Assembly (NCBI RefSeq): GCF_000619805.1
Contig: NZ_JHUV01000011.1
Coordinates: forward strand, 62,001-126,000
From: Sulfurihydrogenibium subterraneum DSM 15120
GTDB taxonomy: Bacteria; Aquificota; Aquificia; Aquificales; Hydrogenothermaceae
Length of the DNA: 64,000 nt
Direction: 5' to 3'
Position 1 is the stretch's first letter. Every line of letters starts with the position of its first letter. Positions 4,895 to 17,227 of this stretch are shown one piece after another. The notes below the pieces were generated by a model that had not been told where the DNA came from, ran no database searches, and worked only from the letters and a program-made list of their open reading frames with translations. The translations under genes and the position numbers were made by a program.

Positions 4895-7800
4895 TTTTTA
4901 ACTTCTACCTCGTCTGTTTCATCAGAAGGTTTTTTTACTTCAATTGGAACTACTTTTACAAAGTTATCTATCTCTTGCTTAAAGTTGTAAAGTATTTTTT
5001 CTGCAATTTTACTGTCTGTGTAAGCTTTGTGTTTTGTTAAGAGTTTCTCTATCTGGTCTACATCTTCTTCTTCAAGTTCCACTACTTCAACGTAAGATTT
5101 GTTTATCTTTCTATTTACCTCTGAATTAGGGTCGTAAATGTATGCAACTCCACCGGTCATTCCAGCTCCAAAGTTAACGCCAATATTTCCAAGAATCATA
5201 ACGATACCGTCTGTCATATACTCACAACCATGGTCTCCCACACCTTCCACTACAGCTACAGCTCCGCTATTTCTTACTGCAAATCTTTCCCCTACTTTTC
5301 CGCTTATAAAGACTTGTCCACCGGTTGCACCGTAGAGTATTGTATTTCCTGCTATAACGTTATTATGGCTTTCACCTTTAAACTCTTTCGGTGGTTTTAT
5401 GATGATCATTCCACCCGCCATGCCTTTTCCTACATAATCGTTTGCTTGACCGGTTAGGGATAAAATCATTCCGTGTACACAGAAAGCTCCGAAGCTTTGA
5501 CCCGCAGTTCCTCTTAGATTTATCTCTATTTTACCGTTTCTTAATCCTTTGTCTCCGTATCTTTTAACTATCTCATGGGCTATTCTTGTTCCAAAAGACC
5601 TGTAAGTGTTTCTTAAAACGTAAAATCCTGAGAAGTTTTTGTCTTTTTCTATTGCTGGTAATATTTCAGGAAGTATTTCAAGGTCAAATGGTTTTTTAGA
5701 ATCTGGTATTGGATTTGAGTCTTGAGTAGATTTTGATGGTTTTGTAGGGTCGTAAGGTATTAAAACATTGACAAACTTAATTTTTTTAGCTTTATAATGG
5801 TCGTGTGGAATTATAGGCTTGAGAAGGTCTGTTCTTCCTATTATTTCGTCTAAACTTTTGTAGCCCATATCTGCAAGGTACTGTCTTACCTCTTGAGCAA
5901 CAAACTTAAGGTAGTTTATTATATGCTCTGGTTTTCCTGGAAACTTTTCTCTTAATCTTTTATCTTGGGTTGTTATACCTACTGGGCAGGTGTTTAAGTG
6001 GCACTGTCTTGCCATTACACAACCTTCAGCTATCATAAGGGCAGTTCCAAATCCAAACTCTTCTGCACCTAATAGAGCTCCTATGATTATATCTCTTCCT
6101 GTTTTTATACCACCGTCAACTCTAAGTTTTACCCTTGACCTTAAATCATTATCTATTAATGCTTTATGGACTTCAGGTAATCCAAGCTCCCATATTGTTC
6201 CTGCGTTTTTTATTGATGATAAAGGAGAAGCTCCTGTTCCTCCGTCATGCCCTGATATGTGGATAATATCAGCAAAGGCTTTTGATACCCCAGATGCTAC
6301 AACACCTATACCACTTTCAGATACAAGTTTTACTATAACTTTTGCTTTTGGATTTATCATTTTTAGGTCGTATATTAACTGGGCAAGGTCTTCTATTGAG
6401 TATATGTCGTGGTGAGGTGGTGGAGATATAAGAGTTATTCCAGGTTTTGCATGTCTTAAAAATGCGATGTACACATCTACCTTTTTACCCGGTAATTGTC
6501 CACCTTCTCCCGGTTTTGCTCCTTGAGCAATCTTTATCTCAATTTCTTCAGCTGAGTTTAAATATTCAGGAGTTACTCCAAATCTTCCTGATGCTACCTG
6601 TTTTATTTTACTGTTTTTTATTGTTCCATACCTTGCAGGGTCTTCTCCACCTTCTCCAGAGTTAGACTTTCCACCTATAGTGTTTAGAGCTTCTGCTATG
6701 GTTTCGTGTGCTTCTCTGCTGAGAGCTCCTACAGACATCCCAGCTCCAACAAACCTTTTCATTATAGACTCAATAGGCTCTACTTCTTCTATAGGAATAG
6801 GTGGTCTGTCTGAATTTATTTGAAGCAGGTCTCTTAGCTCTACAGGTTTTTCAGCGTAAGCAAGGTCTGCAAATGCTTTATACTCTTCTAACTTTATCTG
6901 TCTTACTGCTCTGTGAAGAGATGTTAAAGCTTTTGGATTCCATGAATGGAACTCTCCTCCTTCTCTTCTGTGTCTATACTCTCCTCCTACAGGAAGTTCT
7001 TTCATTTCTCCAGAAAAAGCTGGATTAAATCTTGCTAAGGTCTCTCTTGCAATTTCCATAAAGCCTATACCATCAAGTTTAGAAACAGTACCAGGGAAAC
7101 ATTTATCTATAACTTCTTGAGATATACCTAACGCTTCAAAAAGTCCAGAGCCTCTGTAGCTCTTTATGGTAGCAATACCCATTTTGGACATTATTTTAAG
7201 TAATCCTTCGTTTAAGGCTTTTTTGTAATTTTTAACAGCTTCTTCAAATGTAATCTCAAACTTTTTATCTTCCTCTACCAAATTTCTTATGATTTGAACA
7301 ATCATGTAAGGATTTACCAAAGTTGCACCGTATCCGATAAGGAATGCTAGAGAGTGAGTATCTCTTACCTCTCCACTATCAGCTATTATGCTGAATCTGC
7401 TCCTTTTTCCTCTTTTTGCCATGTAAGTGTTTACAGCTCCAACTGCAAGTCCCATAGGGATAGGAGCTCCTTCTATTGATATGTCTCTGTCAGAGAGTAT
7501 TATTATCTCTTTTCCGTTGTCTACAGCTTCTTCAACTCTCTGGCATATCTCATCTAAAGTAGGTTCTAAAGCTGTTTCGTAAGGTGGGAATATAGTAGGT
7601 ATTATCTGAACTTTATCTGGATAAGTTTTGATAAGCTCCTGCATTTCGTTATCAAATATTATTGGGCTGTCAAAGACGATTTGGTTAGCGTGTTTTGGAG
7701 TTTCAAGTAAAAAGTTTTCTTTTTTACCTACGTAAGTTTTTAAAGACATTACTTTCTTTTCTCTTATAGGGTCAATAGGTGGGTTTGTTACCTGAGCAAA

Positions 7801-9297
7801 TCTTTGTTTAAAATAAGATGCAAGCATCTTAGGTCTTCTTGAGAGAACGGATATAGGTGTATCATTACCCATTGAGTAAGTAGGCTCTACTCCTTTAAGA
7901 GCCATCTCTTTTACAACCATATTAATCTCATCTTTATCATAACCAAATGTAATAAGCTCTTTTAATACTTCCTTATAATCAATTTCGGGTGTTTCTTTTG
8001 CAGGAATGAAAGGAATTATGTTTGACTCTACCCATTCTTTATACTTTTTGTCTTTAACAAGAAGGTCTATTATCTCTTCTGAGAAATAAATTTTTCCTGT
8101 TTCTAAGTCTAAGGCAATCTTGTCTCCCGGACCTAACCTTCCTTTTAAAACCACTTCTTCTTCAGGAAACTCAATAACACCTACTTCAGAAGCCATTAAT
8201 ATTACATCGTTTGTTATTATGTATCTTGCAGGTCTAAGTCCGTTTCTATCAAGCTTTCCACCTATGATTTTACCGTCTGTAAAGGCTATTGCAGCAGGTC
8301 CGTCCCAGCTTTCAAATATGCAAGCAAAGTACTCATAAAAAGCTTTTTCTTCTGGTGTTAATCTATCGTCATTTTCCCAAGCTCTTGGAACTAAAACGTT
8401 TATAGCTGTAAGAATATCTTTTCCAGAGTGGACTAAAAACTCTATAGCGTTATCTAAAGAAGCAGAGTCGCTATCTGTATCGTTTGTTATAGGTAGTATT
8501 ATGTTAGCTAAATCTCCCCATACTTCTCTTATGTCTTGTTCTTTTGCTTTAAGCCAGTTTCTGTTTGCTGATATTGTGTTTATCTCACCGTTGTGGGCAA
8601 GCATTCTAAATGGATGGGCAAGCTTCCAGTTTGGAAATGTATTTGTTGAGTATCTTTGATGGAATATTGCAAAGGCTGTTTCGTAATCTTCGTCTTGTAA
8701 ATCAAGATAAAAGTCTCTAAGTTTTGGAGCTGTAATAAGTCCTTTATAAACTATTGTCCTTGAAGATAGAGAAGGTATGTAGAAATCTTTGTAATCAGGG
8801 TTTAAAGAGAGTTTTTCTAACTTTTTTCTGAGAATAAATAAATCTTTTTCAAAGTTTTCTGTTTTAATACCCTCTTTTGATATAAATCCTTGTAAGATGG
8901 TTGGTTGAGTTCTTTTGGCTATTTCTCCTACTTCGTTTTCATTTATAGGAACTTCTCTCCAACCTAAAAATTTAAATTTTTGATTTATTATATCTTCAAT
9001 CTCTCTTTTTAAACTCTCTTCTTTTCCTTTTGGTAAAAAGAAAACGCCTACTGCAAAGTCTTCTACAGAAGGAACTTTTATACCTAATTTTTTCAGCTGT
9101 TTTTCAAAGAATTTATAAGGTATCTGGGTGAGTATTCCAGCACCATCCCCTGTTTTACCGTCTGCACTTACAGCACCTCTATGGTCTAAGTTTGCAAGGG
9201 ACTCAAGAGCATCACAAAGAATTTTATATGATTTTATTCCTTTTATGTTTGCTAAAAATCCTACACCGCAGGCATCTTTTTCTAAAATTTCAGACAA
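4891..9297 (-). CDS. gltB: Glutamate synthase, large subunit
   Basis: A roughly 1470-residue glutamate synthase alpha subunit, which makes two glutamates from glutamine and 2-oxoglutarate. After a short propeptide comes the class II amidotransferase cysteine (CGVGFLANI). The central FMN domain carries the 3Fe-4S motif CVMARQCHLNTCP. The C-terminal GXGXG helix domain (GTAGQSFGAF...) closes the protein. I place the start at the TTG ending at 9297, because GAGGTGG sits five bases before it; a GTG at 9306 lies inside that ribosome site. No small subunit gene is nearby, so the electron-donating partner is elsewhere or a ferredoxin. Confidence 0.95.
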   Translation of the reverse strand: MSEILEKDACGVGFLANIKGIKSYKILCDALESLANLDHRGAVSADGKTGDGAGILTQIPYKFFEKQLKKLGIKVPSVEDFAVGVFFLPKGKEESLKREIEDIINQKFKFLGWREVPINENEVGEIAKRTQPTILQGFISKEGIKTENFEKDLFILRKKLEKLSLNPDYKDFYIPSLSSRTIVYKGLITAPKLRDFYLDLQDEDYETAFAIFHQRYSTNTFPNWKLAHPFRMLAHNGEINTISANRNWLKAKEQDIREVWGDLANIILPITNDTDSDSASLDNAIEFLVHSGKDILTAINVLVPRAWENDDRLTPEEKAFYEYFACIFESWDGPAAIAFTDGKIIGGKLDRNGLRPARYIITNDVILMASEVGVIEFPEEEVVLKGRLGPGDKIALDLETGKIYFSEEIIDLLVKDKKYKEWVESNIIPFIPAKETPEIDYKEVLKELITFGYDKDEINMVVKEMALKGVEPTYSMGNDTPISVLSRRPKMLASYFKQRFAQVTNPPIDPIREKKVMSLKTYVGKKENFLLETPKHANQIVFDSPIIFDNEMQELIKTYPDKVQIIPTIFPPYETALEPTLDEICQRVEEAVDNGKEIIILSDRDISIEGAPIPMGLAVGAVNTYMAKRGKRSRFSIIADSGEVRDTHSLAFLIGYGATLVNPYMIVQIIRNLVEEDKKFEITFEEAVKNYKKALNEGLLKIMSKMGIATIKSYRGSGLFEALGISQEVIDKCFPGTVSKLDGIGFMEIARETLARFNPAFSGEMKELPVGGEYRHRREGGEFHSWNPKALTSLHRAVRQIKLEEYKAFADLAYAEKPVELRDLLQINSDRPPIPIEEVEPIESIMKRFVGAGMSVGALSREAHETIAEALNTIGGKSNSGEGGEDPARYGTIKNSKIKQVASGRFGVTPEYLNSAEEIEIKIAQGAKPGEGGQLPGKKVDVYIAFLRHAKPGITLISPPPHHDIYSIEDLAQLIYDLKMINPKAKVIVKLVSESGIGVVASGVSKAFADIIHISGHDGGTGASPLSSIKNAGTIWELGLPEVHKALIDNDLRSRVKLRVDGGIKTGRDIIIGALLGAEEFGFGTALMIAEGCVMARQCHLNTCPVGITTQDKRLREKFPGKPEHIINYLKFVAQEVRQYLADMGYKSLDEIIGRTDLLKPIIPHDHYKAKKIKFVNVLIPYDPTKPSKSTQDSNPIPDSKKPFDLEILPEILPAIEKDKNFSGFYVLRNTYRSFGTRIAHEIVKRYGDKGLRNGKIEINLRGTAGQSFGAFCVHGMILSLTGQANDYVGKGMAGGMIIIKPPKEFKGESHNNVIAGNTILYGATGGQVFISGKVGERFAVRNSGAVAVVEGVGDHGCEYMTDGIVMILGNIGVNFGAGMTGGVAYIYDPNSEVNRKINKSYVEVVELEEEDVDQIEKLLTKHKAYTDSKIAEKILYNFKQEIDNFVKVVPIEVKKPSDETDEVEVKK

Positions 9298-9350
9298 TTT
9301 TACCACCTCAAAAATTTTTAGGTAAATAAATATTTTAATACAAAAATATA

Positions 9351-11270
9351 TTATTTGCTTGATTTAATAAGCTCTTCTATCGGTTTTGGTTTTGCAAAGT
9401 AGTATCCCTGTCCGTAATCAACGCCTATGTATTTTATTATTTTTAGTATATCCTCATTTTCTACATACTCTGCAATTGTTTTTATTTTCATCTTCTTACA
9501 AAAATCGTTTATCATCTTGACAACTTCAAATGAAACTTTATCAGTTGTGATGTTCTTTATAAGGTTTGCATCTATTTTTAAGTAATCAATATTTAACCTT
9601 AAAAGGTAAACGAAGTTTGAGTATCCACTACCAAAATCGTCTAAACATATAACGTATCCAGCTTCTTTTAGACTGCTTATTATCTTTACAATTTCTTCGT
9701 ATGCAAGAGCGTCTTCTGTTTCTACTATCTCAATCATAAGCCTTTTTATAATACTCTCTTGTTTTGCTATATCCAAAAGCATGTCTATGGTTGACCTGTT
9801 TAGTATGTCTGATGGTTTTAAATTTATACTTACTTTTATGTAAGGATGCTCTTTTAATATTTTAAGGTTATACTCCATAACTTCTTTTGTAAGCTTAGTA
9901 TAGAGAAAAGTGTTTTCTATTGTGTTTAAAAACTGGTAAGGTGGGATTGTGTTTCCCTCTTTGTCTTTAACTCGGACTAATGCTTCGTAATGGGAGACTT
10001 TACTGTCTTTTAATGATATTATAGGTTGGTATAGACAGAAAAGCCTTTTATCTTCAATAGCTTCTTTGATTTGAGAAACTTTTAAGGCTTTTTCAGATGA
10101 TTGAGTTTCTTCATCGTAAATCTCTATTCTATTTCTTCCTTTGTTTTTAGCTTTGTAAAGAGCAACGTCAGCTTTTTTTATAGCTTCTTGTAAACTTTTG
10201 ACTTTATCTGTATCTAAAAATACACCTATTGATAAGGTTGTTTTAATGTAATCGTCTTCATTTATCTTTATTTTTAAGTTTTCTACACTACTTCTGATTC
10301 TCTCCGCAACGTTAATGTAATTTATATTATCTAAATTTCTTTCCTTCTGTAAAAGTATTAAAAACTCTTCTCCCCCGTACCTTATAACAATGTCATTTTC
10401 TCTAACGTTCTTTTTAATATTTTTTGCTACAGTTTTCAAAATCTTATCTCCTACTAAATGACCGTAAGTATCGTTAATTTTTTTAAAGAAGTCTATGTCT
10501 GCAACTATAACAACAAAGTCTTTTAAATTTTTATTTTCTATCTCTTCTAAGTAGTTCCTGTTGTAAAGTCCTGTAAGGTTGTCAATAAAACTTCTTTTTT
10601 TGTAGTATAAAGTTTTTATGATTCCTATAATGGCTACATTCGCAAGTGATACTATTAATATTATAAATCCAAATACAGCCCTCCGTATTGAGTCTACTAA
10701 ACTTTTAATCTCTTGTACTTCTTTTATGGTGTAATCTTTTATAAATATGTAATTTATATTATCTTTATCTTTAAATGGGATGTATAAAGTCAAACCTAAA
10801 GTTGATGTGTTTGTATGTATTAAGTACTTATACTCTCCTTCTTTTATTCCTTGGTTAACAATGGGTATTTCCGCTGGAAGTAGTTGAATATACTCAAAAG
10901 GTTTCATTCTATCTTTTTTAGATGCATCAAGGGCTATAAAAAACTGTCTGTTTGATTCAAAAATTATGTATAAATACTCTGTATTTGGTGTATTTAGAAC
11001 CTCCAAAATTCCGCTTGCATTTTTAATGAACTGTCTGTCAGATATTTTTGATATTAATGAATCTTCTGATATCTCCTTTATTTTTTTGATAACATTTTTA
11101 GCTATATCTACCTCTTTTTCTAAATCTTTTTCAAGAAGTATGTTTTGAATATATTTTTCGTAGACTGGTAAATATAAATACAAGACTGAAAGAATTATTA
11201 AAGATAGAAGTGTAATTCCTATGGATATTTGATTCTTTTGAATTTCTTTAGATAGATAACTTTTTATCAT
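9351..11270 (-). CDS. Membrane GGDEF-EAL protein (c-di-GMP synthesis/breakdown)
   Basis: A 639-residue sensor-output protein. Two membrane segments (about 15-35 and 197-222) bracket a periplasmic region of some 160 residues. The GGDEF domain has an intact active site (RYGGEEF) and an inhibitory RxxD site (REND) five residues before it. The EAL domain shows EALVRV, DDFGSGYSN, a LKID lysine, AEYVE and GYYFAKP, the residues needed for phosphodiesterase activity. Both halves may therefore be active. Its start overlaps the upstream periplasmic gene by ATGA, and a TonB-dependent receptor precedes that, suggesting control by an envelope signal. Confidence 0.93.
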   Translation of the reverse strand: MIKSYLSKEIQKNQISIGITLLSLIILSVLYLYLPVYEKYIQNILLEKDLEKEVDIAKNVIKKIKEISEDSLISKISDRQFIKNASGILEVLNTPNTEYLYIIFESNRQFFIALDASKKDRMKPFEYIQLLPAEIPIVNQGIKEGEYKYLIHTNTSTLGLTLYIPFKDKDNINYIFIKDYTIKEVQEIKSLVDSIRRAVFGFIILIVSLANVAIIGIIKTLYYKKRSFIDNLTGLYNRNYLEEIENKNLKDFVVIVADIDFFKKINDTYGHLVGDKILKTVAKNIKKNVRENDIVIRYGGEEFLILLQKERNLDNINYINVAERIRSSVENLKIKINEDDYIKTTLSIGVFLDTDKVKSLQEAIKKADVALYKAKNKGRNRIEIYDEETQSSEKALKVSQIKEAIEDKRLFCLYQPIISLKDSKVSHYEALVRVKDKEGNTIPPYQFLNTIENTFLYTKLTKEVMEYNLKILKEHPYIKVSINLKPSDILNRSTIDMLLDIAKQESIIKRLMIEIVETEDALAYEEIVKIISSLKEAGYVICLDDFGSGYSNFVYLLRLNIDYLKIDANLIKNITTDKVSFEVVKMINDFCKKMKIKTIAEYVENEDILKIIKYIGVDYGQGYYFAKPKPIEELIKSSK

Positions 11271-11755
11271 CTTTCAGCAATAAGACTTATTCTATCGTTG
11301 ATATTATGAATCAACCTTTGCGATAAGTTTCTTGATTTAATTATGAATCTATCATATTCTGAGGGTAATTGTATATCAAACTTTTTTAGTCTGTCTTCTA
11401 AAAAGATTAGCTGTGGTCTTCCTTTTTTCCAGTATAGCCCTCCTATTGCATTTTGTAGCTGTTTTAAGATTTCTTCGTTAAGTGCTATTACAGGCTTGTT
11501 ACTGTAAGGTATTTCTCTATTTGATAATATTATGTCTGCGTTTTGGCAGTTTGTTATATGTATTTTTGTAGAATATTTCTGTATGTACTGAACTTTTTCT
11601 GAGTCATAAATGCAAATGTATACTGCCTGTTTTTGTGTAATATCTAACAGAATTTTTTCAAGCAATTTTACTTCAGTATAAACTGGGTCTTCTTGAGATA
11701 AGGCTTTAAAAGAGATAACTAAGATAAAAGCCAGTAAAATTTTTAAAGTCTTCAT
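11267..11755 (-). CDS. Small periplasmic protein, candidate c-di-GMP input partner
   Basis: A 162-residue protein with a signal peptide (LKILLAFILVISFKALS). I do not recognise a named family with certainty. The mature part has an alternating strand/helix pattern (VYICIYDSE, ADIILSN, KPVIALN) and a conserved-looking AIGGLYWKKGRPQLIFL segment. This general layout recalls periplasmic regulators such as YfiR, which restrain a partner diguanylate cyclase, but sequence identity to YfiR is not evident. It lies one base after the TonB receptor and is coupled by ATGA to the GGDEF-EAL gene. A role as signal relay is inferred from that position. Confidence 0.6.
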   Translation of the reverse strand: MKTLKILLAFILVISFKALSQEDPVYTEVKLLEKILLDITQKQAVYICIYDSEKVQYIQKYSTKIHITNCQNADIILSNREIPYSNKPVIALNEEILKQLQNAIGGLYWKKGRPQLIFLEDRLKKFDIQLPSEYDRFIIKSRNLSQRLIHNINDRISLIAER

Positions 11756-11756
11756 T

Positions 11757-13682
11757 TTAAAATACCTTTTCTATACCTATTACTAATTTTCTATCGTATG
11801 CGTCAAATATGCCAATCTGATTAGGATAACCAAATAAAACAGTTTTGTAGGAGCTGTTTAGTAGATTTTCTCCCTTTACCTTTATACTTAAATTTCGGTC
11901 AAAGTTGTATATAAGTCCAGCGTTTAAATTGTATGTTGAATTAACTTTTTTGTCAAACACTTCAAAACCATTTCTGTATATTAACTCTCCGTAAATGTCA
12001 AATCTGTCAAAAGAGTTAAAAGTTTTTATTGAACCGCCAAAAGTAGGGCTAAATTTTGAGGAAGGTAAAAAGGCTTTAAATACGTCAAAGATTATTTTGT
12101 TATTTGGTGTTATTTTGTAAGTGTATTCAAAATCTAAAAGATGAAAAGGAGTACCTTCATAATTTAAAGTTCCATTTTGAGTAAAGATTATTAAATCCTT
12201 AGCGTAAGTGTAGCCATAAAACAGCTTTAGAGTGTTCTTTCCTTTTTCATAAACAATCTCAGAAGAAAATCCTTTTAGATTCTCTACTCTCAAATCTTTT
12301 GGGTTTTTAGATTGCTCTAATTCATAAAAAGAGGGTGGCATGTAAGTTTTTGTTATGAAACTTTTTATGTATAAATTTTCATTTATAAAAGAAGTGTGTC
12401 CAATTCTTGCTATAAACTGTTTTATGTCTGGTAGATTCTCTCTTCTGTAATAGTCATATTTTAGACTTAAGAATATAAGATTTTTTTCGTTTATATTGTA
12501 CTGGTTTTCAGCAAAAACTGTGTAAAGGTCTGTTTTGTTGAATTGAAGTAAATCTTTAGTAGAACCTGATGTATATCCTGATAAAGTATATGCTTTATAA
12601 TCAGCCTTTTCTACATCATTTTGTTTTATTTTGTAAGACGTTCCTATTAATAGTATGTTGTTGTCAGTTTTAAACTCTTTTGACAAGTAAAAAGTGTACT
12701 TTTTTAGATTTCTTTTTTCATAGTAATAATAAGGGATTGATAATGGCGGGTTATAGACAGGTAAAACAAAAACACCACCTTCTGAGTATTTATTTTCAAA
12801 CTCTCCTTGTCGTTGGTTGTAGTCATAAGAAATATTTAGAGTCAAAGATTTGTCTTCAAGTAATTTTTGAGTAAGAGAGATATAAAAGTCTTGGGACTGT
12901 GTGTAAGCTTTGTCTGGTGAAATATCAACTGCTAAGCCTTTAAAAGCATCTCTACTTACCTTTGCAAAGTTAAGTGTAAGCTGAGTGTCGTAGTAGTTTA
13001 GTTTAAAAATGCCAAAAACTGCTTGGGAATCTCTGTTTAAAGGATTGTTGTTGTAATAGTAAGTTTTGTAGTTGTTATAACCTTTATAGACACTTACAAG
13101 GTAAGAGATATTTTCTTTTATAAGTCTTGCATCTGTAAAGTTGTAAGAATAACCTTTTCTTGTATCTAACAGTCCTTTAACAGTTGTAGAGTTTTCTCTT
13201 TTAGGGTCTTTTGTGTAAAGTTTTATTATTAATATTGATGGTTCATTACCAATTCTTACAGCTCCTGCTCCAAGGTATATCTCTATATGGTCTATAGAGT
13301 CTAAAGGGTAGTTATCGTAAATCAAAAATGGATTATCTGTATGTATTGAACTTACTTCGTGGTCATCTATAAATAATCTGTAAGAAGTATTTAAACCAAC
13401 TTGTGATCCTGCAGCAGTAAGTTGATAAACACCAAAGGTGTTAGGGATATAAGAGTGAAGTTTTAAAGATTTTAAAACGTCAGACAGGGTGTTTGCTTGC
13501 ATTATCTCTAAATCTTTTCTTGTTATTGTAATATAATGTCCAAGACTTTCAATTTTTGTTCGGTTGGAAAGGTCAGAAGCTTCTTCATATTTATTTAATA
13601 AAGTTGTTATTTTTTCTTGAGCAAAGACATTTTTAACAAGTAGAAGACTCAACAGTGTTGTAAGGACTTTTTTGTTTTTCAT
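11757..13682 (-). CDS. TonB-dependent outer membrane receptor
   Basis: A 641-residue outer-membrane receptor. It has a signal peptide (MKNKKVLTTLLSLLLVKNVFA), a plug domain (ITITRKDLEIMQANTLSDVLK..., IDHIEIYLGAGAVRIG) and a beta-barrel rich in aromatic, alternating strands, ending in a terminal phenylalanine (VIGIEKVF). The size is small for the family. The substrate cannot be read from sequence; there is no transporter gene beside it. Instead two genes follow immediately, a periplasmic protein and a GGDEF-EAL protein, which suggests a sensing rather than purely uptake role. Confidence 0.88.
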   Translation of the reverse strand: MKNKKVLTTLLSLLLVKNVFAQEKITTLLNKYEEASDLSNRTKIESLGHYITITRKDLEIMQANTLSDVLKSLKLHSYIPNTFGVYQLTAAGSQVGLNTSYRLFIDDHEVSSIHTDNPFLIYDNYPLDSIDHIEIYLGAGAVRIGNEPSILIIKLYTKDPKRENSTTVKGLLDTRKGYSYNFTDARLIKENISYLVSVYKGYNNYKTYYYNNNPLNRDSQAVFGIFKLNYYDTQLTLNFAKVSRDAFKGLAVDISPDKAYTQSQDFYISLTQKLLEDKSLTLNISYDYNQRQGEFENKYSEGGVFVLPVYNPPLSIPYYYYEKRNLKKYTFYLSKEFKTDNNILLIGTSYKIKQNDVEKADYKAYTLSGYTSGSTKDLLQFNKTDLYTVFAENQYNINEKNLIFLSLKYDYYRRENLPDIKQFIARIGHTSFINENLYIKSFITKTYMPPSFYELEQSKNPKDLRVENLKGFSSEIVYEKGKNTLKLFYGYTYAKDLIIFTQNGTLNYEGTPFHLLDFEYTYKITPNNKIIFDVFKAFLPSSKFSPTFGGSIKTFNSFDRFDIYGELIYRNGFEVFDKKVNSTYNLNAGLIYNFDRNLSIKVKGENLLNSSYKTVLFGYPNQIGIFDAYDRKLVIGIEKVF

Positions 13683-13801
13683 ACGGGCATCCTTTTTTTC
13701 TCGTTTGTTGTTTTCATATATTAATTTTTTTTCAACATTATGGCCATCAAAAATACTGTGATAAACTCATCTTTAAAACCTTTCAGAGAGTTTTAAAAAT
13801 A

Positions 13802-14422
13802 TTATAGCAATCTAAAATCTTTTTCGGTATGAAATGATAGATTTATAAACTTAACTTCGTCTTTTGAGTTGTTTGATACTATTAGAGATAATCCTGTGTT
13901 ATCGTGTCTAAACTTCCACAGACACTCTATGCCTAAGTTCATAACTATACACAGTAGTCCCTGTATAGAGCCTCCGTGTCCAACTATCAAAATGTTATGT
14001 TCTTGTGATTTTTTTATATCTTCCCAAAATAGTCTTAATCTTTTTTCAAAGTGGTATGGGTCTTCTTGTTTGGGTAGTGGATGTTTAACTGGGTTAGAAA
14101 GCCAGTTGTAAAAATGGTCTTTTGCGTTTTGGTATATCCAGTCGTAAGATAGCCCTTCCCATGTTCCAAAGTGCATCTCTCTAATTCTTTCATCTACATT
14201 AACTTGTAGGTTTAGAATGTCTGCTACTGTTTTAGCAGTTTGATAAGCCCTTTTTAAATCTGATGATACTATTTTTTGAATATTTTTTTCTTTTAAAAAC
14301 TCTGCTAGTGCTTTTGCTTGATTTATACCTTTTTCAGTCAGCTGAGTGTCTATGTGCCCTTGAACTATCTTTTTTGCGTTATACTCACTTTCTCCGTGCC
14401 TACAGAGGTATATATACTTCAT
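13802..14422 (-). CDS. Histidine phosphatase (phosphoglycerate mutase-like)
   Basis: A 206-residue member of the histidine phosphatase superfamily. The catalytic RHGESEYN motif is at residue 8, the acid/base region EMHFGTWEG is near 84, and the second histidine is in LIVGHGGSIQG near 148. Related enzymes include alpha-ribazole phosphatase (CobC) and, in Hydrogenobacter, a metal-independent phosphoserine phosphatase. Which substrate is used here is not decided by the motifs. The start overlaps the stop of the GNAT gene by four bases (ATGA). No tail peptide or membrane segment is visible. Confidence 0.85.
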   Translation of the reverse strand: MKYIYLCRHGESEYNAKKIVQGHIDTQLTEKGINQAKALAEFLKEKNIQKIVSSDLKRAYQTAKTVADILNLQVNVDERIREMHFGTWEGLSYDWIYQNAKDHFYNWLSNPVKHPLPKQEDPYHFEKRLRLFWEDIKKSQEHNILIVGHGGSIQGLLCIVMNLGIECLWKFRHDNTGLSLIVSNNSKDEVKFINLSFHTEKDFRLL

Positions 14423-14871
14423 ATCTCAATCACCACTGGAACTTCTCTACAGTCGTTGAATTTTACACAGTGTATACACTCTGTCCATACTTTCTGTGGA
14501 AAGTTTGATTTGTCAGTAATTTTAAATCCTAACTTTTCAAAAAAGGAAGGAACATAAGTAAGTGCAAAGACTCTCTTTATACCCAGTTGTTTTGCATCTT
14601 CTAAACAAGCTTCAACAATTTTTCTTCCTATACCGTGATTTTGATAATCTTCTAAAACTGCCAAAGATTTTATCTCAGCTAAATCTTCCCAGTAGATATG
14701 TAAAGACCCAACTCCTACAATTTTACCATCAACTTCGTAAACGTAAAAGTCTCTAATGTTTTCGTAAATACTGTTTAAACTTCTGGGAAGTAGAACTTCT
14801 TTTAATGCAAAGTATTGAAGGATTTTAAAAATACTTTCTGCGTCTTTAACTTTCGCTTTTCTCAGGTTCAA
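14419..14871 (-). CDS. GNAT acetyltransferase (short ArgA-like)
   Basis: A 150-residue single-domain N-acetyltransferase. The acetyl-CoA loop is [17 protein letters not shown] near residues 73-89. The end [23 protein letters not shown] followed by CVKFNDC closely resembles the short, stand-alone N-acetylglutamate synthases (ArgA-like) of many bacteria, which open arginine synthesis. That assignment is plausible but not proven by sequence alone. It begins 26 bases inside the 3' end of lon on the same strand and overlaps the following phosphatase gene. Confidence 0.75.
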
Positions 14872-17227
14872 CTTCTTTATCCTTTAAGGCTATTTTTAAC
14901 ACTTCATCTATGTGATCTACAAATATAAGGTTTACTGATTTTCTTACGTAAGCAGGAAGGTCAGACATTACTTCCTCTTTGTTGCCTTTTGGTAGTATCA
15001 CATTTTTAATACCTGCTCTTTTTGCTGCTAATATCTTCTCTTTTAGTCCTCCTATCGGAAGGACTTTTCCTGTAAGGGTTATCTCTCCTGTCATTGCTAC
15101 GTCAGACCTAACAGGTCTACTTGATAGTAGAGATGCAATTGCAGTTGTTATAGATATACCTGCAGATGGTCCATCTTTTGGTATTGCACCTGCTGGGACG
15201 TGGACGTGAATATCATATTTATTAAAGTCTTCTGGGTCTATACCAAGGTCTTGGGCTTTTGATTTAACGTAGGAGTATGCTATTTTTGCAGATTCTTTCA
15301 TCACATCTCCAAGGGAACCTGTTAGGATTAAATTTCCTTTTCCGGGCATTTTTGTAGCTTCTATTTTTAGTATCTCTCCTCCTACTTCAGTCCAAGCAAG
15401 TCCTGTAACAACTCCTATCTCATCTTTTTCTTCTTTTTCAGGTATGTATATTGGTGAACCAAGGAGCTTCTTAACTGTTTTTTCTGTAATTTTGTACTTT
15501 TTCTTTCCACCTTTTTCTACTATCTCTTTTGCTATTTTTCTTATGATTGAACCTATCTGTCTCTCTAAATTTCTTACTCCAGCTTCTCTTGTATAACCTC
15601 TGATAATAAACTGTATAGCTTTATCTGTAAACTCTATCGTTTTTTCATCTAAACCATTTTCTTTAAGCTGTTTTGGTATAAGGTACTTTTTGGCTATCAT
15701 TAACTTTTCTTCTTCTGAGTATCCTGATAATCTTATAACTTCCATTCTGTCAAGCAGCGGCCTTGGGATTGTGTCTATTCTGTTTGCAGTACAGATAAAC
15801 ATTACTTCTGATAGGTCAAACGGTACTCCAAGATAATGGTCAACAAACTCTTTATTTTGCTCTGGGTCTAAAACTTCAAGTAATGCAGCTGTTGGGTCCC
15901 CTCTAAAGTCTAAACCTATCTTATCTACTTCGTCAAGCATAATAACAGGATTTTTTGTTCCTGCCTGTTTTATAGCTTGTATTATTTTTCCGGGAAGAGC
16001 TCCTACGTAAGTTCTTCTATGTCCTCTTATTTCTGCTTCATCCCTTACACCACCTAAAGATATTCTTACAAACTTTCTACCCAGTGCTTTTGCTATTGAT
16101 TTTCCAAGAGATGTTTTACCTACTCCCGGTGGTCCAACAAAACAAAGAATAGGACCTTTTATAGACGGGTCTTTTGTTTTTTGTTTTTTTATTTTCAGTA
16201 CAGCCAAATACTCTAATATTCTTTCTTTTATCTTTTCAAGGTCATAGTGGTCTTCATCTAATATTTTCTTTGCAACTTTTAAATCAAGTCTGTCTTTAGT
16301 CCTTTTGTTCCAAGGGAGCTCTACCAACCAGTCAAGGTAAGTTCTTATAACCCCTGCTTCAGCAGAGTCTGGATGCATCTTTTCAAGTCTTCTAAGCTGT
16401 TTTTCAGCTTCTTCTTTTACATAGTCCGGCATTCCAGATTCTTCTATTTTCTTTCTGTAATTTTCTATCTCTTCTTTTCTTTCGTCTTTTTCTCCAAGTT
16501 CTTCTTGTATTGCTTTTATCTGCTGTCTTAAAAAGTACTCTCTCTGGTCTTTTTCTATAGCTTCTCTTGCTGATACTCTTATTTTATGTTGTAATTCTAA
16601 TATTCCTACTTCTTTTAAAAGTTTGTCATGGACAACTCTTAGCCTTTCTACAGGGTCAAGGATATAAATTATCTCTTGAGCTTCTTCTGGCTTTAGGTCT
16701 AACACTGACGCAACAACGTCTGCAAGTCTTCCGGGTTCTTCTATAGACTTTATGATTTCTACTAAATCAGGGATTATTTGTTTTCCTAATGATATGGCTT
16801 TATCTATAAGGTCTCTTGTTGAATGTTTAAGAGCTTCTATCTCTATCGTTTCTTCAACTTCTTCATCTTCTAAAATGTCTACTTCTACTTCATAGTATCC
16901 ATTTGTCTCTTTTAAATACTTTATTCTTCCCCTTGTAACTCCTTGAACTAATACTTTTATTCTTTCGTCTTCAAGTTTCATCATTCTTATAATTGTTGCG
17001 ACTACTCCTATCTCGTGTATATCTTTTAAAGAAGGTTTTTCTGTTTCTTTATCTTTTTGAAGTGCTAAGAATATGTATCTGTTATTGTTGTCTATTGCTT
17101 CTTCTACTGCTTTTATAGAAAATGGTCTTCCTATAAAAAGTGGCATTACCATATATGGAAAAACAACTAAATCTCTTGTTGGTATTAAAGGGTATTTTGA
17201 GGGTAGTTCTAAAAACTTTTCTTCCAT
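14846..17227 (-). CDS. lon: ATP-dependent protease Lon
   Basis: A 793-residue LonA protease for removal of damaged and short-lived proteins. In order: an N-terminal substrate-binding domain ([23 protein letters not shown]), a coiled middle, an AAA+ module with Walker A (GPPGVGKTS) and Walker B ([11 protein letters not shown]), and the C-terminal protease domain. The Ser-Lys dyad is seen in [10 protein letters not shown] and in [21 protein letters not shown]. The upstream neighbour is a small heat-shock protein gene, 19 bases away, so the two are probably expressed together as a protein-quality pair. Confidence 0.97.

Follow-up and report, generated by a model that had tools for sequence, protein, structure and literature searches.

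A co-inherited TonB-type receptor, periplasmic protein and GGDEF-EAL enzyme form a candidate Yfi-like signalling module in Aquificota and Campylobacterota

TonB-dependent transducers that work with an anti-sigma factor and an extracytoplasmic function (ECF) sigma factor are typified by FecA-FecR-FecI and PupB-PupR. A different trans-envelope circuit is the Yfi system, in which YfiR, a periplasmic protein of Pseudomonas aeruginosa, attaches as a repressor to the PAS-like domain of YfiN and is captured at the outer membrane via YfiB (PMC3375315; PMC2837407); distant Yfi systems without YfiB have GGDEF-EAL proteins or kinases as outputs (PMC3375315), and the main text of the paper that describes them does not mention TonB. 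Here we analyse an operon in a 64,000-nucleotide stretch of Sulfurihydrogenibium subterraneum DSM 15120 (the window), an Aquificota bacterium with a genome of 1.61 Mb. Its three minus-strand genes encode, in order, a TonB-type receptor, a 162-residue periplasmic protein, referred to here as the relay, and a GGDEF-EAL enzyme that would make or degrade cyclic di-GMP (c-di-GMP). We found that receptor, relay and output are co-inherited as a trio across two distant phyla, and we consider it fairly probable that the operon is a trans-envelope signalling module resembling YfiBNR, with a TonB-dependent receptor in place of YfiB.

The receptor and relay genes are one base apart (position 11756 alone), and the stop codon of the relay overlaps the start codon of the enzyme in an ATGA at 11270-11267, so the coordinates of the open reading frames bear out the tight spacing that an original prediction, made from the letters of the window, had described. 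Its statement that no transporter is present also held, in that no ATP-binding cassette (ABC) permease or ATPase is recognisable among the open reading frames of positions 7000-16500. The features discussed below are as follows.

11757..13682, minus strand: TonB-dependent-type outer-membrane receptor, 641 residues, first gene (open reading frame; weak Plug match; Plug in relatives; PDB profile matches)
13539..13613, minus strand: conserved N-terminal receptor segment, residues 24-48, of LLxxYxxxSxLxxKTxxESLGH type (alignment information content)
11267..11755, minus strand: periplasmic relay, 162 residues, with a YfiR-like predicted fold, second gene (open reading frame; structure prediction and fold comparison)
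11414..11431, minus strand: relay residues 109-114, a WKKGRP turn and the best-conserved part of the family (alignments)
9351..11270, minus strand: membrane-bound GGDEF-EAL enzyme, 639 residues, third gene (open reading frame; Pfam; motif check)
10701..11165, minus strand: predicted periplasmic Cache-like sensor of the enzyme, about residues 36-190 (hydropathy; AlphaFold2 model; fold matches)
10128..10589, minus strand: GGDEF domain, with GGEEF at 10362-10376 and the inhibitory site (I-site) REND at 10392-10403 (Pfam; motif check)
9387..10073, minus strand: EAL domain, with EALVR at 9972-9986 (Pfam; motif check)

The relay gene keeps its neighbours at nearly all loci at which we could read them. 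We took with their flanks 53 of the 55 Aquificota relay places found at an expectation value (E) <= 1e-6, leaving out two contig-end fragments of genome G086, and loci for 30 of the 36 places of a Campylobacterota sample; contig-end cases were classed as cut. Among the Aquificota, a receptor gene lies upstream of the relay at 48 of 51 readable loci and a GGDEF gene is present at 48 of 48, behind the relay in 44 cases and, in the four loci of one genus, as a GGDEF-only gene ahead of the receptor. All 30 Campylobacterota loci have the receptor (29 by single-sequence search and L161 by profile), with a GGDEF or GGDEF-EAL output at 23, a histidine kinase at six and neither at one (L175). Across both phyla, GGDEF genes accompany the relay at 71 of 78 readable loci, and six of the other seven carry a histidine kinase; this is the opposite of a family occurring mostly without c-di-GMP genes, the outcome that the original prediction had named as speaking against it. 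A further set of 36 loci found by the WKKGRP pattern and confirmed by relay profile (33 with GGDEF, two with a kinase, one cut) overlaps the others and is not summed with them. On these counts, drawn from two phyla, we regard the trio as a conserved module and not as a local accident or the work of chance. To that extent the signalling chain first proposed for this operon stands as a co-inherited unit; the physical relay of a signal along it is something that we infer. At one Aquificota locus (L041:520-2016), an IS605 OrfB / Cas12f1-like (TnpB-type) gene lies directly upstream of a relay gene without signal peptide; a receptor match there (E 0.002) was rejected because the IS605-type gene occupies that place, and no receptor gene was found on the relay's contig.

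The relay, which starts with a signal peptide of about residues 1-20 (by eye), has no sequence match in Pfam, NCBIfam, PHROGs or the PDB, so that the family, which the original prediction could not name either, is undescribed in these databases. Nor did it match plasmids, and a scan of genome contigs with the single protein as query returned nothing. By profile, it occurs in 43 of 136 Aquificota genomes at E <= 1e-6 (50 of 136 at E <= 0.1), while three weak Aquificota matches above 1e-6 (L092-L094), once fetched, contained no relay by profile; the genome of the window has one match to the relay and one to the receptor. A search of named genomes for the pattern [FLI][YF]WKKGRP turned up 37 loci, which belong to Aquificota and to Campylobacterota, the latter including Sulfurimonas, Sulfuricurvum and Arcobacter. 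Residues G112 and R113 are invariant among 49 relatives, and W109, G112, R113 and P114 carry 3.8-4.3 bits; that all six WKKGRP residues are invariant in 35 relatives is partly so by construction, since the search pattern contained WKKGRP.

Structure prediction confidently gave the relay one alpha/beta domain (predicted local distance difference test, pLDDT, 92.6). The model matches YfiR entries over its whole length with Z 6.6-8.5 (114-119 residues, 3.2-3.7 Å; best 4xjy, Z 8.5, 115 residues, 3.2 Å), and a single-domain substrate-binding protein of Rhodothermus marinus (PDB 5z6v, 6k1y) with Z 7.7-8.7, on a scale on which Z under 8 may mean a mere common arrangement and unrelated rows stand at about 5. 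The list of fold matches is headed by 3LFT and a V. cholerae protein, and 3LFT and a V. cholerae protein were also reported as the nearest folds of YfiR (PMC4655355). The relay is thus predicted to have the single alpha/beta domain of YfiR, a domain that is not unique to YfiR, and its one-lobed model does not show the two lobes and ligand cleft of a solute-binding protein. PF13689 (DUF4154/YfiR) does not match the window relay at E <= 10, is not among the matches listed (25 of 28 families, E <= 10) for 49 relay relatives, and matches 0 of 136 Aquificota genomes, including the window's own. Relay profile A1 aligns with DUF4154 profile A4 at E 3e-6, a match confined to the signal peptide and first half, and profile A3 aligns with A4 weakly (E 1.7e-4, probability 49) and co-linearly over the GG-hairpin-helix region. 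Neither of the conserved cysteine pairs of P. aeruginosa YfiR, 71-110 and 145-152 (PMC4655355), is kept as such in the relay, whose GG hairpin region contains no pair; its sole often-conserved cysteine, C70, is invariant in one set of 12 and not in larger sets of relatives. The loose likeness to YfiR noted at the outset therefore survives for predicted fold and gene order, and not for the sequence family, PF13689 being unmatched.

Taken alone, the window receptor matches Pfam Plug at E 0.003, below Pfam's cut-off. Its identity is made firmer by its relatives, since Plug is found at E <= 0.01 in 19 of the 22 members of receptor alignment A7 and a PDB search with the A7 profile matches BtuB and the colicin I receptor (3e-8 to 6e-8); with plug and beta-barrel, the 641-residue protein is, as far as sequence can tell, a TonB-dependent-type receptor. 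It ends in an aromatic residue (F). No STN domain was found, Plug being the sole Pfam match at E <= 10, and no canonical TonB box was seen by eye in the receptor sequences; a TonB gene is present in the genome (two TonB_C matches). Between signal peptide and plug sits the segment of about 25 residues listed above, and with a mean information of 2.72 bits over the 22 receptors, as against 2.67 for the plug and 2.07 for the barrel, it is conserved on a level with the plug and above the barrel. We suggest it as a candidate contact site. At L073:3176-7024, two receptors of this family lie in tandem ahead of the relay.

The enzyme matches EAL (2.5e-58) and GGDEF (1.3e-41) in Pfam, and the GGDEF, EAL and inhibitory sites that had been called intact are complete: REND, five residues and GGEEF make up an intact I-site and active site (A-site), and the EAL domain retains EALVR as well as its catalytic residues (N, E, DDFG, K, E, Q). 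With these residues it fits a bifunctional diguanylate cyclase / phosphodiesterase. Outputs differ in this respect, and in five genomes of Aquificaceae genus g17 (L071, L072, L074, L080, L062) the output is probably breakdown only, because GGDEF has decayed to AGEEF or SGEEF and the I-site is lost, with EAL intact; the motif alignment includes one kinase row in error (L167), and some contigs are present in it under two locus ids. Two transmembrane helices (residues 15-33 and 191-209, by hydropathy) flank a periplasmic domain whose AlphaFold2 model (pLDDT 92.5) matches WalK (4ywz; Z 12.9, 140 residues, 2.8 Å) and Tlp3 (4xmq; Z 12.0, 182 residues, 4.9 Å), and which is accordingly modelled as a Cache fold, with a long N-terminal helix and a PAS-like sheet between the two transmembrane helices. 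Pfam reports dCache_1 and MCP-like_PDC_1 in just 3 and 4 of 33 members of this sensor domain, and no HAMP in the window enzyme at E <= 10.

Eight of the nine GGDEF genes of the genome were examined, and the sensor domain is on the operon's gene and absent from the other seven. Its profile matches every one of the 49 Aquificota outputs that could be read (in the GGDEF-only genus the matches are weak, at 1e-5 to 1e-13), and in the Campylobacterota sample 23 of 23 GGDEF outputs and five of six kinase outputs. The enzyme behind the sensor therefore varies (GGDEF-EAL, GGDEF, histidine kinase) and receptor, relay and sensor stay constant, as would be expected if the relay and the sensor domain are partners. 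In three genomes of genus g21 (L191, L192, L193), the gene directly ahead of a Cache-GGDEF-EAL enzyme encodes another small secreted-looking protein and is itself preceded by a beta-barrel-like gene, which in L192 has a weak match to a porin; one further genome (G082; L197) has a similar small protein ahead of such an enzyme. These loci look like the same design with the outer-membrane and periplasmic inputs swapped.

We reasoned as follows about how such a module could work. The receptor would bind an external ligand, and a change in its plug or conserved N-terminal segment would alter its hold on the relay; the relay, perhaps via the edge on which the WKKGRP turn lies, would bind the Cache domain of the enzyme and lock the enzyme in one state, and its release or capture would switch c-di-GMP synthesis or breakdown. 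We propose more tentatively, as an idea that may or may not hold, that the conserved N-terminal segment, a one-domain relay and a Cache enzyme or kinase make up a form of TonB-receptor signalling free of STN domain and sigma factor, swappable as a line across Aquificota and Campylobacterota. In a mirror-tree test on ranks of plain distances (34 Aquificota and 40 Campylobacterota operons), the partial rank correlation of relay and sensor given GGDEF was 0.46 in Aquificota and 0.47 in Campylobacterota, that of relay and GGDEF given the sensor 0.39 and 0.32, and that of receptor and sensor given GGDEF and relay 0.12 and 0.45, respectively.

Several observations weigh against a Yfi-like signalling module. 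The tree comparison discriminates weakly, and as all parts of the operon co-diverge it is mild support at best. Lobes of solute-binding proteins (e.g. 3LFT, 3LKV) match the relay model at Z values equal to those of YfiR. Once signal peptides are trimmed, the match of relay to DUF4154 falls to E 0.017 (probability 2.6), a score that 4 of 200 column-permuted controls equal or beat, and we therefore do not claim the relay as a DUF4154 member by sequence. L090 and L091, from one genus, have the relay without a receptor, and a transposase (IS605-type) gene takes the receptor's place in L041. Finally, of the 63 Aquificota places (64 pieces) with the sensor domain, eight show no relay in upstream sequence that could be read, so the domain is not exclusive to relay loci and does not need this relay.

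The main rival is that the system imports and then senses: the receptor would take up a ligand by TonB-driven transport, the relay would be a binding protein of one lobe that retains it in the periplasm, and the Cache domain would then be offered the ligand itself or the loaded relay. The ambiguous fold of the relay suits this account, as do the TonB gene in the genome, the chemoreceptor and kinase Cache domains among the fold matches of the sensor, and the g21 genomes and one further genome, in which the same sensor follows another small secreted-looking protein, with the porin-like hint of L192; Cache domains commonly bind small ligands. The relay is single-lobed with no second domain, however, and no ligand transporter lies beside the operon, and we judge the account unlikely. 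It is also conceivable, though we find it improbable, that the genes are merely co-expressed, the relay helping the receptor to assemble or to gate its plug and the enzyme sensing its own ligand through the Cache domain. The enzyme's complete predicted sensor fold and the places at which that sensor lacks a relay would agree with this; but L090 and L091 pair relay and sensor domain where there is no receptor, and the relay-output adjacency is kept in two phyla despite swapped outputs.

A last alternative concerns descent and is compatible with a Yfi-like module: relay and operon may be diverged forms of DUF4154/YfiR and of the Yfi system, respectively, which we consider possible but doubtful. 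For it speak the predicted fold, the profile alignment, weak but co-linear, across the GG-hairpin-helix region, and a gene setting that is the same as that of true DUF4154 genes. The latter occur in 12 of 200 Campylobacterota genomes, against 28 of 200 matched by the relay profile in the class of a Sulfurimonas genome, and adjoin genes for TonB receptors and for GGDEF proteins or kinases (13 loci, some neighbours by eye); Pfam confirms TonB-type receptors at L133, L134, L135, L138 and L140, and the order in L134 is TonB receptor, DUF4154, GGDEF-EAL. Against it stand the failure of PF13689 to appear among the relatives' listed matches or in any Aquificota genome, the absence of both cysteine pairs as such, and the lack of a detected HAMP and of YfiB. 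Two Campylobacterota genes near TonB-type receptors are fusions, DUF4154 (YfiR) being joined to a GGDEF domain in L138:1429-2973 and to a histidine kinase in L139:1-2013.

Around the operon, the flanking open reading frames are presumably a GltB-like protein (1471 residues), a phosphoglycerate-mutase-like protein, an acetyltransferase-like protein and a Lon-like protease. Promoter and terminator scans gave sites no more numerous than in shuffled sequence, and Rfam had no match inside the operon. Elsewhere in the window, Rfam family RF03531 (n00280, by its description a C. difficile small RNA within a helicase gene) matches positions 604-701 of the plus strand at 65.9 bits, where the gathering score is 65.2; the match may reflect no more than coding sequence.

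We found no description of the receptor-relay-output trio in open-licence papers. A Yfi-like circuit as such is already known; what appears to be new is the version with a TonB receptor and a relay family that sequence does not place. The outside signals that feed c-di-GMP are, to our knowledge, mostly unknown, and it is our impression that c-di-GMP control has hardly been studied in thermophilic, chemolithotrophic bacteria. A receptor gene conserved beside a c-di-GMP gene marks the entry point of the signal and makes it directly testable. The trio also suggests that TonB receptors signal by a route other than sigma factors and, if our reading is true, there would be a general, swappable line from the outer membrane to a second messenger in Aquificota and Campylobacterota.

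Set beside described systems, the operon shares most with YfiBNR (P. aeruginosa; yfiR-dgcN-yfiB in E. coli), in which an outer-membrane part, a periplasmic protein of a single alpha/beta domain and an inner-membrane GGDEF protein with a PAS/Cache-like domain are likewise encoded in one operon with modular outputs. It differs in having a TonB-dependent receptor where YfiBNR has the OmpA-like lipoprotein YfiB, in a relay that PF13689 does not match and that does not keep the YfiR cysteine pairs, and in a GGDEF-EAL output in which no HAMP was found. The Campylobacterota DUF4154 loci, such as L134, have the same gene order and types of partner as the window operon, but PF13689 recognises their relay and their receptors score in Pfam directly. 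The Rhodothermus marinus proteins (5z6v, 6k1y) are the relay's best single-domain fold match, at 14-15 percent identity. With FecA-FecR-FecI and PupB-PupR the operon has in common a TonB receptor as signal input across the outer membrane; in contrast to these, the window receptor has no detected STN and no adjoining sigma or anti-sigma factor, and the output is a second-messenger enzyme or a kinase.

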